Both the position numbers and the translations under genes were made by a program. From positions 1-20,964 of the IMG/VR virus record IMGVR_UViG_3300031823_000028: DNA of 20,964 nt. One strand, given 5' to 3'. The notes under the pieces were generated by a model. It was not told the origin of the DNA, made no database searches, and worked only from the letters and a program-made list of their open reading frames with translations. Positions 4,081-12,299 of this stretch are shown in pieces. Source of the stretch: a virus. Positions within the stretch are counted from its first letter, which is position 1, and each line of letters begins with the position of its first letter.

Positions 4081-7000
4081 CTAACCCGCCGTTTCACGGT
4101 TGGAACTGACCGCAACAATCGTCGCCGGGAGCGGGCGCGACACGCGGAAACATGGTGACGCGCTGCGGGTGTAGTCGTCGCTGAAGCTGTCCCAGATGAT
4201 GCCGGAGAATGTCGTGAGCGCTGCCGGCGCGGTGGCCGGATTATTGGGATCGCTGCGCAGGTTGGCCGGCTTGAGGTGGTTGAAATCCCGCCCGAGCTGG
4301 AGACCCAGCGTATTCACCAATTGCACCGCGTATTCGTGCGCGCGGGCTATGGCGCCCAAGGCCGGACCGGCACGCGACCCGCTATCGGCCGGCATGATCG
4401 GCCGCACGATCTGGACGTCGCTATTGTAGGTGTAGCCGACGACGATCTGACTGGCCGCGCCTTGCGCAACCGCTTGCGTGAACAGACCGCGGCCCGGCCC
4501 GGCCGAAATGCCATCGCCGTAGGGCACGGTCACCACGCCCGCGGTACACTGGAAATCGGAATATGGCCTGCCCTCGCCGGTGTCACCGAGATCGAGACCG
4601 GCGCAGAACACTTGCACAAGCCCGGTGGTGGTGCCGCTGTTGCGGAACGGCAGCCCGCTCAATGTGACACCGGTAGTGCCGATCGTCACGGTGGGCGCCG
4701 CGCCGGCATCGAGGAACCATGAATCCGCCAGCGGGGTTGTCTCGTCCTGCACGTCGGTCAGGATTTCAACCCAGCGCTGTCCGGTGTTGGGATCGTTGGT
4801 GACCATGGTCAGAGCGTCGAGATTGCCATCGACCGATGGACCGGAACATATGCTTTCGACGATACGGCCCGAGCCTAGCGTGTGCCCGGCCCAGCCGTAG
4901 AACGTAGGCGGCTGCGATGACGCCAGCGAATCCCGCTTGTAGGTCATGCTGGCCCAGGAGCCGTCGGTCATGCGTGCCCACAGGATCGGATTGACCGCCG
5001 AAGTATAGGCCAATTCCGCCACGCCGGGCTTGGTGCGGATCGTCTTGTCGGCGAGGTTCGGCGCCGAGAATTTGCCGGAAAACACGTCGGGGAAATATTC
5101 CAGCAATTTGCGGGCAAAGCGCTGCACGAAAACCTTCGTGTGCTCGGTCCGAGCCGGCTGGATATTGGCACTTCCGTGATTGGTGACGTTGCGCGCGTCG
5201 ATGTTGAGAGCTGATATCGGCCCGGCGGTCGGGGCCAGCACCAGCCATTCGCCGGCCTGCGTTCCCATCAGCACGCCCTGCAGGTCCTGCATCATCCAGA
5301 AGATCGGATTCACGCCGTCGTCGTTGAGGGTATAGTCGAAAGCGTTCGCCGCCGTGACCTGGCCGTATTGGTCGGTCGGGGCCATATTGATCGCGCTGCC
5401 GGTGATGCCGTTGGCATAGCAGGCGTCAAAGCGGTTGGCTACGGCGCCGCCGAGCCACACCCGGCCGCCAACGTAGACACCACAGGTCGGCAGCGAGCCC
5501 GCCGTGTAAACCCCGAGCCGCCATGTCAGGATCGGATTAGTATAGAGCAGCGGCGGCCCGAGGATTTCGACATTGCAGCCCGCGCCGGTTCCGGTGCCGG
5601 TCGGGCTGTAGAACGAGAGCTGACCGATGATGTTGGTGAAGGTGTAGCCGGTGTAAACGGTGCCGCCACCAAATTGTGCGACGGTGACCTGTTCTACCCA
5701 GACATAAGCCCATGCCGTGGCTTGGTCTGACGATACGAGATTAGTGGTCGAGTTCGGATTGGTGAGCGCTCCGGATGTGGCGAGAAGCGTCCCGTCGGCG
5801 GAGTTGGCCGGCAGGGTTGCCTTGCCGCGCAAATTGAAGGTAACGCTGAAAACATCGGCGACTGTGGTGTTGCCGAAGGCGTCGGTCACCGTGCCCGTGG
5901 CGAAACCTGCATCGCTGGAAGGATAGAGCGCGGCATGCTGGATCGCCTGACCGCCGGAGAAATTCTTGCCGACATAGCTCGAGATCGTGATCTGGGACGT
6001 TGGGCCGAATGAGCCCGTCCCCGATATCGACAATTCTGCCGATGACGCCGCCGGCTGCGACAACACACCGTTGAACGCGCCGGCTAGGCCGCCCCCTCCC
6101 GTCATGGTGCCGATGCTGGTGTGACCCGATGGACTGATCGCGTTGGACAGCGACGTGATCTTGCCCCACGTCCATATCGCAGCGCCCTGCGGCACGAGTT
6201 GCCAATGCGTGAGATCGGACCCCGGCGGAAACCCGACATTGGCCCCGACCAGCGATTGCCAGTACGTCGTGGCGCCGTCCTCGCCGCTCGGATTGTAGGA
6301 GACGACCACGGGCACTGTCGCGGTCGATGCGGCATAGGTCGTGCCGTTGGCCCAATACGGCGGCTCGGAAAACAGCCGCATCAGCCGGCCGATGTCCGAG
6401 CCGAGAAAGCCCTTGCCGCCGTTGATCGCAGTAGAAGCGCTGGTTGCCGCCCACCACGGTGCGCCGCCGGATGGCGTGTTGCCGACGTTCTGGTCCTTCA
6501 GCGAAATGTAATTGGCGCTGGAATAGGTGACGATCGCGCCGACCGGATAGGCCGTGGTCGCAACGTAGCCCTGAAACGACAGCTCGATCGTGATCACGCC
6601 AGAGAGTGCGCCCGGCGTCGCCTCTACCCCGTCGGTGAAAGGATCGAGATAGGGGCCGTCGTTGAAGATGACCGGCCCGAGCGCGAACGTCGGATTCGAT
6701 CCGGGATTGATGGTCGCGACCAGGGCCTGCGACGGCACGGTCGGGGTCAGCAGGATCTGTGTGGTTCCGCCCTGCACCGGACGGATCGCAGCCCAACTTC
6801 CGTTGGTGTACGGCGTGGCGAGCGTGGCCCCTATGATGTTTGGACCGGAGCGAAACCGCAGATTGCCATCGGTGTGCTCCTCCGTGACGGGCGCAACGGA
6901 TTCGAAATCGAACCGGATCACCCGGCCCGGATTGCCGTTCAACGTGGTGCCGGCGAACATCGTGCCGGGCCTGCGGGTCCAGGGTCCGATCTCGACCGGG

Positions 7001-7116
7001 AAGGAATTCAGGCAGACACGCAGGCTTGTGCGAAAGTCCGGCTTGTCGAAACGGCCTTGTGCGGCCTGCGATAATTCGCCGCCGAGAAAATGGGGGACTG
7101 CAAATGCGGCTGCCAT
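4081..7116 (-). CDS. Tail tubular protein B (gp12-like) with carbohydrate-binding-like inserts
   Basis: The 1011-aa protein has the hallmark N-terminus of the gp12/tail-stabilisation family: a GGELSQAAQGRFD segment, then CLNSFPVEIGPWTRRPGT at about 35-52. A SDIGRLMRL segment follows near 240-248. The family forms the lower tail tube (nozzle) that contacts the cell surface. It is longer than T7 gp12 (about 794 aa). Part of the excess is two aromatic repeats at about 183-222 (TTAYPVGAIVTY...ANYISL...NTP...WW) and 254-306 (YWANGTTYAAS...TTYWQSL...HW). They resemble the CBM5/12 chitin-binding pattern of Tyr, Gly-x-x-V, Tyr, Pro and Trp. The gene begins 4 nt after the tail tubular A stop. The family call is firm; a glycan-binding role for the inserts is inference. 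Confidence 0.9.
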   Translation of the reverse strand: MAAAFAVPHFLGGELSQAAQGRFDKPDFRTSLRVCLNSFPVEIGPWTRRPGTMFAGTTLNGNPGRVIRFDFESVAPVTEEHTDGNLRFRSGPNIIGATLATPYTNGSWAAIRPVQGGTTQILLTPTVPSQALVATINPGSNPTFALGPVIFNDGPYLDPFTDGVEATPGALSGVITIELSFQGYVATTAYPVGAIVTYSSANYISLKDQNVGNTPSGGAPWWAATSASTAINGGKGFLGSDIGRLMRLFSEPPYWANGTTYAASTATVPVVVSYNPSGEDGATTYWQSLVGANVGFPPGSDLTHWQLVPQGAAIWTWGKITSLSNAISPSGHTSIGTMTGGGGLAGAFNGVLSQPAASSAELSISGTGSFGPTSQITISSYVGKNFSGGQAIQHAALYPSSDAGFATGTVTDAFGNTTVADVFSVTFNLRGKATLPANSADGTLLATSGALTNPNSTTNLVSSDQATAWAYVWVEQVTVAQFGGGTVYTGYTFTNIIGQLSFYSPTGTGTGAGCNVEILGPPLLYTNPILTWRLGVYTAGSLPTCGVYVGGRVWLGGAVANRFDACYANGITGSAINMAPTDQYGQVTAANAFDYTLNDDGVNPIFWMMQDLQGVLMGTQAGEWLVLAPTAGPISALNIDARNVTNHGSANIQPARTEHTKVFVQRFARKLLEYFPDVFSGKFSAPNLADKTIRTKPGVAELAYTSAVNPILWARMTDGSWASMTYKRDSLASSQPPTFYGWAGHTLGSGRIVESICSGPSVDGNLDALTMVTNDPNTGQRWVEILTDVQDETTPLADSWFLDAGAAPTVTIGTTGVTLSGLPFRNSGTTTGLVQVFCAGLDLGDTGEGRPYSDFQCTAGVVTVPYGDGISAGPGRGLFTQAVAQGAASQIVVGYTYNSDVQIVRPIMPADSGSRAGPALGAIARAHEYAVQLVNTLGLQLGRDFNHLKPANLRSDPNNPATAPAALTTFSGIIWDSFSDDYTRSASPCFRVSRPLPATIVAVSSNRETAG

Positions 7117-7120
7117 GGCA

Positions 7121-8431
7121 TCAGTACCGGACCGAGATCATCTCGTCCATCGGCGGGTCCTGGTAACCGACCTCGATCGCATTCGAAATCCGGGCCTCGC
7201 CCATGAACTGCTTGTAGGCCGCCGCGATGGTCTGTTGCTTCGCCGTGGATTGCGTCACGCTGGGGCAGATCTCGAAGGCGATGCGGGCGCCGAGCCCTTC
7301 GCAGAACATTGCGTCCATCAGGGAAACATCGACCACATCGGCGCCGAACCGGAACCGGATCGGGCCGGAATCGGTCGAGATCAGGTAGCCGCTCTCGAAA
7401 TCCCAATCGCGGAAGGTGTTGCCGCTGGGGCCGCCTAGCCATGTCGTTGTGCCCTTGGCATCCTGATAGCCGGCACGGAGGAACCCGGCCGGGAGCTTGA
7501 AGATGTTGCGGCTCGTCAAATCCGTGGATGGGCCGGTGCCGATCGGATACTGGATGTTGAGCGTGGTCAGCGCGACGCCCGAGGGCGAGCCGGTGCCGCC
7601 GATCAGGAGCCAGTTCATCGAACCGGTGCCGCCGGTGAATACCGAGGTCCATGGGTTGAGCACGCCGGTATTGGTCCAGTGCACGCCGCCGTCCAGCGTC
7701 GGGTCATGCCCGATATTGCCGGAGCCAACCGATTGGTAAATGATGCCGTCGGACCCGCCGACCTTGTTCCCCGCAGCATAGGTGGTGGCGATATTGAACA
7801 GCGCCGGCGCCAGGTCGGGCTCGTTGTTCATGTTGAAGTCGATCAGGCTGAGATACGCGACGCTCGCGAACGTCACCACCTGATCCTTGTAATAGGTGGT
7901 GGTCGCGCTGTACGGCGTCGCCGTTCCTGGCACGTCGGCATTGCCCGAGATCAGGCTGAGATAGACCAGTGCGGTCCCGGTGCCCGCCGTGGTGTAGACC
8001 ACCTCGCCCGCGCCATAGGCCGTGGTGCCTGACGCATCGTAAAGCGCGGCGGTCAGCGTCCCGAAATACGGCTCCCATAATGTGGTCAGCAGGGGATCGT
8101 TGCCGAGGTTGTCGGGGATGGTCGAGCGCCAGTAATTATTGCTCTGGTCGGCGACGATCGAGCCACGGAAATACGTGGTCAGCGGCGACCACAGCGACGG
8201 CACGATCAGCATGGTATTGCCGTCGATCGCGCGCAGCATGGCTTCCTTGATCGAGAACACCCATGAATTGCGCTTGAGTTCGGACTGTCGCAGCTTGTCG
8301 TAGCAGAAACTGATCTGGGCGGCTGCCGTGACCGAGGTATCGCCGAAACCCAACGCCGGATTCATCAGCGGCGAGCCGGTGTGCTGGCAGGCGCGTTGGC
8401 CGACATCAACCGGCGTGCGGAATGGGATCAT
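7121..8431 (-). CDS. Tail tubular protein A (gp11-like) with four tandem glycan-binding-like repeats
   Basis: The N-terminus (about 25-70, ALGFGDTSV...CYDKLRQSELKRNSWVFS) and the C-terminus (310-436) match tail tubular protein A of T7-like podoviruses. The C-terminal part contains FKLPAGFLRA, then DAMFCEGLGARIAFEI. The family forms the adaptor ring between portal and nozzle. T7 gp11 is 196 aa; this one is 436. The extra central region (about 81-252) consists of four imperfect modules of 35-45 residues: 81-121, 131-168, 173-209 and 211-252. Each carries TTY or TAY, a Gly/Val strand, a Tyr with Ser or Leu, an Asn-Pro loop and sometimes a closing Trp. They resemble CBM5/12 modules. No strong ribosome binding site is seen before the ATG, and the gene follows one copy of the repeated intergenic motif. 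Confidence 0.88.
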   Translation of the reverse strand: MIPFRTPVDVGQRACQHTGSPLMNPALGFGDTSVTAAAQISFCYDKLRQSELKRNSWVFSIKEAMLRAIDGNTMLIVPSLWSPLTTYFRGSIVADQSNNYWRSTIPDNLGNDPLLTTLWEPYFGTLTAALYDASGTTAYGAGEVVYTTAGTGTALVYLSLISGNADVPGTATPYSATTTYYKDQVVTFASVAYLSLIDFNMNNEPDLAPALFNIATTYAAGNKVGGSDGIIYQSVGSGNIGHDPTLDGGVHWTNTGVLNPWTSVFTGGTGSMNWLLIGGTGSPSGVALTTLNIQYPIGTGPSTDLTSRNIFKLPAGFLRAGYQDAKGTTTWLGGPSGNTFRDWDFESGYLISTDSGPIRFRFGADVVDVSLMDAMFCEGLGARIAFEICPSVTQSTAKQQTIAAAYKQFMGEARISNAIEVGYQDPPMDEMISVRY

Positions 8432-8472: not shown

Positions 8473-8805
8473 TCAGCGCCAGCTTACCGTGACGTCAGGA
8501 GCGGCGACCGCGGTAACGATCGTCAGTCCGGTCCAGAATTGAACATCGTAGGTCCAGCATCCCGGCGTGGCGCTGGCATAGGAAGTGATGGTCCCGATCT
8601 TGGTGCCGCTGGCCGCCGTGTTGTCATAGATCGTGATGGTGCCGGTGGCGGCCGGTGTGTTGATGCAGACCGCATGCAGGGTCCCGGAACCGGATTTCAC
8701 AACCGTCGTGGCGTCGGTCGTGATATTCTGATACGAAAAGACCGATTGCTGCGCCCCGGCCGGGGCCGCAAGCAATGCGAGACAGAGGGCGAGGATGCGC
8801 CTCAT
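8473..8805 (-). CDS. Small exported protein of unknown function in the virion cluster
   Basis: The 110-aa protein opens with a textbook signal peptide: MRR, a hydrophobic core of about residues 4-14 (ILALCLALLAA), and a cleavage-like PAGA-QQ near residue 18. The mature part is Thr/Ser/Gly-rich and beta-like (SGSGTLHAVCINTPAATGTITIYD...SGTKIGTITS...YDVQFWTGLTIVT...DVTVSWR). That pattern is familiar from small uncharacterised phage proteins close to capsid genes, which usually lack a signal peptide. Two cysteines remain in the mature part, possibly forming a disulfide. It starts 3 nt after the upstream gene. It could be a periplasmic or envelope effector made late in infection, or a decoration protein that acquired a leader. 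The function is unknown. Confidence 0.75.
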   Translation of the reverse strand: MRRILALCLALLAAPAGAQQSVFSYQNITTDATTVVKSGSGTLHAVCINTPAATGTITIYDNTAASGTKIGTITSYASATPGCWTYDVQFWTGLTIVTAVAAPDVTVSWR

Positions 8806-10904: not shown

Positions 10905-12299
10905 CTATTCGGCGGCCTGCGCAGTTCCCGTCGACAAAACACGATTGCCAAAATCAGCCAGCAGCCGCTTCAGCGGGTCAGACCAATCGAGCGGTTTGCT
11001 CTGCCGATAGATTACCATCGAATCGTACCAGCAGGTTTCGCTGGTCTGCTGCATCCATGGCCACAGCGCGTCGAACCGCACCAGGTTCCAGACCGGCTTG
11101 CCCATGGCGCCGGCGAGGTGGGCCACCGAGGTATCGACCGTGATGACCAGATCGAGGTGGTCGATGATGAAGGCGGTATCGGCGAAATCGGTCACGCCGG
11201 CCATCGGATCGGTCACGCCGAGATCGCGCATCGCGGCGTCGTCGTTGTGGCTCTGCTGCAGCGAATAGAGATTGACGCCGGGCCGGGCCAGCGGGCGCAC
11301 CAGCTGATCGAACGACAGGCTTTTCTGCCGAGCCGTATCGGCGACGTGGGGCTGCAGATCGCGCTTGCCCGAGGACCAGCAGACGCCGACGTTGAGGCCG
11401 AGCGGGAATTGGAGACGGAAGCCGCGGTCGGGGGGGCTGAGATAGCCGCCTTTGAGCGGGACGGTTTCCGGCGTCATGTCGACGAAGCCGGGGACGTCGA
11501 GCAGGGCGCATTGATAGTCTGGCCGGACCGGCGGTTCGTCGTACATCAGGATAACCTCAACGGGATGGCCGTAATACGGGTTGATGTAAAATGAGTCGCG
11601 CACCATCCGGAACATCGGTGGCCGTACCGCCAATATAATACGCGCTCCCATCCTCTTGATCGGTTCGGCAAACCTCAAACTCTGGATTTCATCGCCGAAC
11701 CCCTGTTCCGAGAACAGCAGAATGGTCTTGCCGCCCAATGGTTCACCGTTCCAGACCGGATAGTTCAGGCGCGGCGCGGGAGGGAAGCCGGGCGCGTTGA
11801 AGCGGTGGCGATAGTTCTTGAAGCCGGCCTTCCAATCACCGGTGGCCATCAGGGCCTGCCCGTAATTGACGCGGAGCTGGGCATTCTCGTGCTTGTCGAA
11901 TGGGAAGGCCCAGCGGTATTGCTCGACTGCTTCCCCGACTCGCATCATAGTGCAGAGCAAATTGCCGTAGTTGAAATACCCCTCGAAACTCTGCCGCTCA
12001 TGAAGCGACCGCCTGAAGCTTTCCTCAGCCTCGACGAACATCCGCGCCGACATGGCATCGATGCCGCGGTTGCACCAGAGATCGTAACGGCCGGGATCGG
12101 CCTTCAATGCGATGCCGTGATACAGCATGGCGTTGCGGTAGCGGCCGGCGTCGGATTCGATCCGGGCCAGCATCGCCGGCGCATCGGCCACGGTCGCGTC
12201 CTGCCGCATGATTTCCCAGCAGAGCGCGGCGGCCTCCTCGCGGCGACCGGCCCGCATCATCATCACGGCGGCGTCGAAGGCTTGAGCGGCGGTGCTCAT
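10905..12299 (-). CDS. TPR-glycosyltransferase (GT9-like) encoded in the head cassette
   Basis: The 464-aa protein has helical TPR-like repeats over roughly residues 1-170 (for example AEESFRRSLHERQSFEGYFNYGN and VNYGQALMATGDWKAGF). A GT-B glycosyltransferase domain related to ADP-heptose:LPS heptosyltransferases (GT9-like) follows. Its family landmarks are intact: LLFSEQGFGDEIQ at about 194-206, VGVCWSSG near 304-311, LYSLQQ near 344-349 and ITVDTSVAHLAGAMGKPVW at about 386-404. There is no signal peptide, so it should act in the cytoplasm. Its ATG overlaps the scaffold stop (ATGA), tying it to the late structural unit. Parts of the middle look lower in GC. Possible roles are glycosylating a virion protein or altering host surface glycan; the acceptor and donor are unknown. 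Confidence 0.88.
   Translation of the reverse strand: MSTAAQAFDAAVMMMRAGRREEAAALCWEIMRQDATVADAPAMLARIESDAGRYRNAMLYHGIALKADPGRYDLWCNRGIDAMSARMFVEAEESFRRSLHERQSFEGYFNYGNLLCTMMRVGEAVEQYRWAFPFDKHENAQLRVNYGQALMATGDWKAGFKNYRHRFNAPGFPPAPRLNYPVWNGEPLGGKTILLFSEQGFGDEIQSLRFAEPIKRMGARIILAVRPPMFRMVRDSFYINPYYGHPVEVILMYDEPPVRPDYQCALLDVPGFVDMTPETVPLKGGYLSPPDRGFRLQFPLGLNVGVCWSSGKRDLQPHVADTARQKSLSFDQLVRPLARPGVNLYSLQQSHNDDAAMRDLGVTDPMAGVTDFADTAFIIDHLDLVITVDTSVAHLAGAMGKPVWNLVRFDALWPWMQQTSETCWYDSMVIYRQSKPLDWSDPLKRLLADFGNRVLSTGTAQAAE

Follow-up and report, generated by a model that had tools for sequence, protein, structure and literature searches.

CBM5/12-like modules inserted in the tail adaptor and nozzle proteins of a BcepC6B/BPP-1-like podovirus

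The adaptor and nozzle of podovirus tails are usually viewed as plain conduits, and contact with the host is assigned to fibres and spikes. Domain inserts in phage tail proteins are already known, as are CBM5/12-like repeats in tail fibres; our search, which covered open-access papers, found no report of CBM modules built into the adaptor or nozzle of a podovirus. Among characterised phages, the nearest relatives of the tail proteins described here, A and B, are those of Burkholderia phage BcepC6B, the uncultured phage MW202898 and Pelagibacter phage Skadi-1, which are also the characterised phages nearest to the structural block of this virus; the BcepC6B record itself draws the comparison with Bordetella BPP-1. 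These proteins have the same core and the same gene neighbourhood but carry no modules, the A proteins being 190-207 aa long and the B proteins 743-850 aa. The core fold of A resembles those of T7 gp11, KP32 TTPA and the Carin-1 connector (Z 16-12), from which A differs by about 180 extra residues, the four modules. The core of B resembles T7 gp12 and the Carin-1 nozzle (Z 36-25), from which B differs by two modules and a further beta-rich insert.

The tail adaptor and nozzle genes and their surroundings

We analysed a viral record of 20,964 bases (the window, meaning this whole stretch of DNA), a fragment of a BcepC6B/BPP-1-like podovirus. Its minus strand encodes, in order, terminase, portal, a scaffold-like gene, the major capsid protein, small proteins, A, B and internal virion proteins. 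The virus carrying the modules is a soil-type virus of bacteria. Host assignment was rejected, since the genome scan yielded a single match, a 6.3-kb contig from a Planctomycetota MAG that is possibly a misbinned phage. Note that the capsid gene and the scaffold-like gene are separated by a TPR and glycosyltransferase-9-like gene (10905-12299, minus strand). Several virion-region genes, including spike- or fibre-like genes of relatives, have N-termini resembling Sec signal peptides (e.g. MRRILALCLALLAAPAGAQQ and MKQIIRAIAFIAALLPSIAAAQQ), namely window 8473-8805 (-), L073:12866-15421 (-), L076:4140-5330 (-), L077:2679-4577 (-), L008:3439-4947 and L101:2353-4617. A GRxGxGxGPxQAIP-like stretch common to several of these genes follows the signal-peptide-like N-terminus. 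A tail spike with a signal peptide is odd.

The names tail tubular A and B, given in the preliminary description, agree with the structure matches, which are of the T7 gp11 and gp12 types. The AlphaFold2 model of A (mean pLDDT 84) has the helical pair and beta core of the dodecameric adaptor, and its best PDB matches were the Carin-1 connector (Z 16.2, 185 residues aligned, rmsd 4.1), LME-1 (15.4) and T7 gp11 (Z about 12). The flanks of the insert are the part that superposes on these adaptors, and residues 308-436 match phrog_394 (tail). As had been proposed, A is more than twice as long as T7 gp11, with 436 aa against 190-196 aa for the PDB chains and 190-207 aa for the module-free relatives. 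The model of B (pLDDT 83) has the nozzle fold across the whole chain, and matched Carin-1 with Z 35.9 (659 aligned, rmsd 3.0) and T7 gp12 with Z about 25.

Table 1. Features of the A and B genes in the window
Feature	Residues	Position	Strand	Remarks
Protein A, T7 gp11-type tail adaptor (tail tubular protein A)		7121..8431	-	436 aa; insert of about 180 residues with four modules
A module 1	80-120	8072..8194	-	module profile E 2e-17
A module 2	133-174	7910..8035	-	module profile E 1e-9; B-only profile weak, E 0.0024
A module 3	173-213	7793..7915	-	module profile E 2e-15; B-only profile E 5e-12
A module 4	211-253	7673..7801	-	module profile E 4e-14
Protein B, T7 gp12-type tail nozzle (tail tubular protein B)		4081..7116	-	1011 aa; phrog_376 tail
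B module 1	184-223	6448..6567	-	module profile E 3e-12; A-only profile E 4e-9
B module 2	255-306	6199..6354	-	module profile E 2e-8; A-only profile weak, E 0.0034
Further beta-rich insert in B	about 326-515	5572..6141	-	about 190 residues; no counterpart in MW202898, BcepC6B or Skadi-1 (alignment)

The beta-rich insert of B keeps a conserved 'SSYVGKNYSGA...YPSSD.GF...LRGK..AP...DGTLLG' pattern. A known carbohydrate-binding domain was rejected for this insert, for which the PDB sequence search gave no match and the Pfam search a weak match in one member. B proteins also vary elsewhere. After residue 95, most relatives (L003, L012, L023) have about 85 additional residues that the window protein lacks; the lengths of L037, L038 and L063 suggest that they lack this stretch too, and the module-free MW202898 has a comparable one. 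In related contigs, B is a single frame of 1522 aa (L029), is split into frames of 721 and 350 aa (L028) or is cut to 718 aa (L027), the broken frames of the last two reflecting a sequencing error or else a gene that is truly split. A further contig carries two adjacent, tandem A-like adaptor genes (L208:3394-4426 and 4429-5788), the second very divergent.

One module type with a CBM5/12 fold in both proteins

Four modules in residues 81-252 of A and two in residues 183-306 of B had been proposed from the sequence. These six stretches seeded an iterated module search of IMG/VR homologues (48 of A, 52 of B), and the resulting profile placed the modules at residues 80-253 of A and at residues 184-223 and 255-306 of B. 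A single module type of about 41 residues is thus common to A, with four copies, and B, with two. As a guard against circularity, profiles were rebuilt from the A modules alone and from the B modules alone, with boundaries still taken from the joint search. The A-only profile matched 51 of 53 B proteins and the B-only profile 50 of 50 A proteins, with a best E of 0.004-0.01 for reversed or shuffled decoys; note that B module 2 (E 0.0034) and A module 2 (E 0.0024) of the window are marginal in these cross-gene profiles. When the A-module and B-module profiles were compared with each other, the probability was 99 and the E value 2.7e-18. These reciprocal results support the proposal that the A and B modules are related and share ancestry. 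The repeats in A and B are real and old, and the reversed and shuffled decoys led us to reject a chance motif or low complexity. In the 17 viral records scanned, eight of them longer than 40 kb, only the A and B genes contained modules.

The proposed likeness to CBM5/12 was borne out by both the HMM search and structure prediction. PF02839 (CBM_5_12) matched 44 of 62 non-redundant single modules (E up to 0.1), with almost no other Pfam match. The proteins of the window stay below the curated cut-off of 26.2 bits (17.2 bits for B, at its module 1), which is passed in whole-protein scans of the relatives L061 (B, 32.4), L012 (B, 26.5) and L049 (A, 33.6). The top solved structure for the module profile was the chitin-binding domain of chitinase A1 (1ed7, E 1.9e-6); behind it ranked a dioxygenase domain, chitin deacetylases, chitinases and some phage tail fibres. 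The chitin-binding domain of chitinase C and residues 209-257 of the predicted A model superpose with Z 8.0 and rmsd 1.1 over 45 residues, and the model agrees with the chitinase C, chitinase B and deacetylase domains with rmsd 1.1-1.6 over 42-46 residues, although this agreement is only partly independent of the sequence match, because the training set of AlphaFold2 contained such structures. It is extremely improbable that the inserts represent normal beta-strands of the tube or a motif arisen by chance: the decoy-controlled profiles, the Pfam and PDB matches, the module-free relatives with the same core and the superposition on chitinase domains all speak against it. Measured against the refuting conditions of the preliminary description, the inserts differ from plain tube strands and show module similarity, but lack aromatics at the binding positions.

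This last point was addressed in 283 modules aligned to chitinase A1, whose numbering is used here. The core aromatics W656, Y662, Y675 and W696 are aromatic in 96-100% of the modules. By contrast, the positions that bind chitin in known members, Trp687 and 679-682, have lost their aromatic character: the Trp687 position is aromatic in 3% of the modules and most often holds Asn, Asp, His or Gln, and for positions 679, 681 and 682 the shares are 0%, 4% and 0%. Of the exposed aromatic ligand residues ChiA1 Trp687 and chitinase B Trp479 and Tyr481, the latter two mapped onto the modules by hand, the aligned positions are aromatic in 3%, 0% and 4% of the 283. The preliminary description had raised an exposed aromatic binding face in its refuting conditions; a canonical glycan-binding face of this kind is not supported, with 3% at Trp687 and 0-4% at 679-682. 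Asn occupies position 682 in 268 of the 283 modules and in all six modules of the window, and the ligand positions are replaced by a "YxSLxxxNxGNxP" pattern. Since this pattern also occurs in modules of phage tail fibres and of Campylobacter phages, the modules represent a phage-type branch of the CBM5/12 fold and not a quirk of this tail.

Insertion, copy number and age of the modules

Alignment with the module-free relatives placed the insert of A after about residue 72 of the core, and showed that B is interrupted twice around 'GFLGSDIGRLMRLF...WTWGKI'. Compared with MW202898 and Skadi-1, B module 2 is set in the loop between 'GRLMRLFSEP' and 'AIWTWGKI'. In a tree of the A core, built without the inserts, one branch with 100/100 support divides 106 module-bearing from 29 module-free proteins. 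Copy number ranges from 1 to 7 among the bearers, with at least 29 changes on the tree (classes: none, 1-2, 3, 4, and 5 or more). Since T7-like adaptors have no modules, these were probably gained rather than lost. The chitin-binding-type fold was apparently built into A and B once.

The many changes in copy number would be expected if the modules were a tolerated decoration, small self-folding units that duplication and insertion add to surface loops with little functional effect. In support of this, the 550-residue A proteins of L049, L030 and L031 carry two further modules inside module 3, which they split, and extra modules occur at other sites in the B proteins of L012, L019, L029, L034 and L065. 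We consider this explanation unlikely, however, since no reversion to zero modules is seen among the 106 module-bearing adaptors of the tree, and since the identity within a slot across genomes is 0.54-0.65 (about 0.3 between slots), which is unexpected for neutral passengers. The module slots are ancient.

Duplication and shuffling of modules between the adjacent genes had also been suggested. The shared ancestry of the A and B modules stands, and in 25 of 28 genomes A module 3 is the one nearest to B module 1. Recent shuffling between A and B was rejected, as B modules are no closer to the A modules of their own genome than to those of other genomes (66.2 vs 66.6; 1255 of 2000 permutations were as high). 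At the DNA level, the direct repeats of 4081-8431 are short and do not exceed 83% similarity; the duplications are therefore old, and recent DNA-level duplication was rejected as well. Finally, the mean pairwise identity of the modules is 0.58-0.64, compared with 0.53 for the N- and C-terminal adaptor core. With conservation on a par with the core, the modules are not rapidly evolving receptor parts.

Possible roles of the modules and comparison with known systems

The explanation that we place first, tentatively and at somewhat less than even chances, is that the modules mostly make protein contacts. The CBM5/12-fold modules would occupy surface loops of the adaptor ring (A) and of the nozzle (B) of the short tail, and with the stoichiometry of T7 (12 A and 6 B) about 60 modules per virion would form an outer collar. 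We infer this outside position because the modules would be too bulky for the DNA channel. There, they would brace the adaptor against the nozzle, and their surface may provide a docking site for tail spikes, any glycan binding being accessory. Protein contacts are favoured because the module surface, without the aromatics that usually bind chitin, shows the same conservation as the core. In support of a collar or docking role, the modules are confined, in the 17 viral records, to the A and B genes while the genomes examined have separate spike- or fibre-like genes. Such genes were found in three long relatives, and for this reason we rejected the possibility that the modules substitute for the spike. 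The docking role would also fit with the presence of this module type in phage tail fibres and in the Campylobacter phage protein F341_109. A likeness of F341_109 to the baseplate adaptors to which tail fibres attach has been reported (PMC10877375) from comparison in silico; a part of F341_109 other than the module may be responsible for it. Against a collar or docking role, at least 29 changes in copy number are unusual for a tight structural part, and relatives in CBM5/12 mostly bind glycans, and the conserved Ser and Asn may form a non-canonical site.

Another possibility, which we rank second, could be accessory glycan adhesion, in which a non-canonical site rich in Asn and Ser binds a widely shared host sugar (capsule, LPS core, peptidoglycan or exopolysaccharide), many weak sites summing to strong binding around the tail. 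The clear CBM5/12 fold, the frequency of this module type in phage tail fibres and the conservation of the polar residues S677 and N682 are all consistent with it, and the KP32 tail tubular protein A, which has no such module, has been reported to act on the capsule (PMC5440376). However, the chitin-binding positions are aromatic in only 0-4% of the modules, the modules are conserved like the tube core instead of diversifying, and separate spikes exist, one of them pectate-lyase-like in sequence by eye. We therefore regard glycan adhesion as possible but less probable than collar or docking contacts, with tolerated decoration third, and hold none of the three with high confidence. It is doubtful that the tail wall is itself a sugar-gripping collar, in which about 60 CBM5/12 modules of the phage type, gripping through a novel non-aromatic site, would act beside or before the spikes in a large uncultured group of soil podoviruses.

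Whatever their role, a CBM5/12 fold, built into both adaptor and nozzle, has been kept in more than 100 related viruses while its copy number shifted many times. This natural series, from 0 to 7 modules on one core, offers a test of adhesion or spike docking by the tail wall. Similar adaptors may already sit unannotated in databases: in BFVD, uncultured phage proteins such as A0A6J5LNM8 (492 aa, ChiA1_BD domain) gave a structural match to most of A over 444 alignment columns, though with a low TM-score of 0.27. Our results also indicate that a CBM5/12 label on a phage protein does not alone imply glycan binding.

Compared with described CBM5/12 domains, such as those of chitinase A1 from Bacillus circulans (1ed7) and chitinase B from Serratia, the modules have the same fold of about 41 residues (rmsd 1.1-1.2 over 45 to chitinases) and share W/Y656, Y662, G665, V668, Y/W675, P689 and W696, but lack the aromatics at 679-682 and Trp687, and their ligand loop is two residues shorter, with a near-invariant Asn. 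The CBM5/12-like repeats of phage tail fibres, those of Caulobacter S2B, Tunturi_3, Campylobacter F358 and F341 and the Pseudoalteromonas H6/1 tailspike, have the same phage-type YxSxxxxNxGNxP in most of those read. These phage repeats sit in fibres, spikes and small proteins, whereas the modules of the window lie inside the adaptor and the nozzle.
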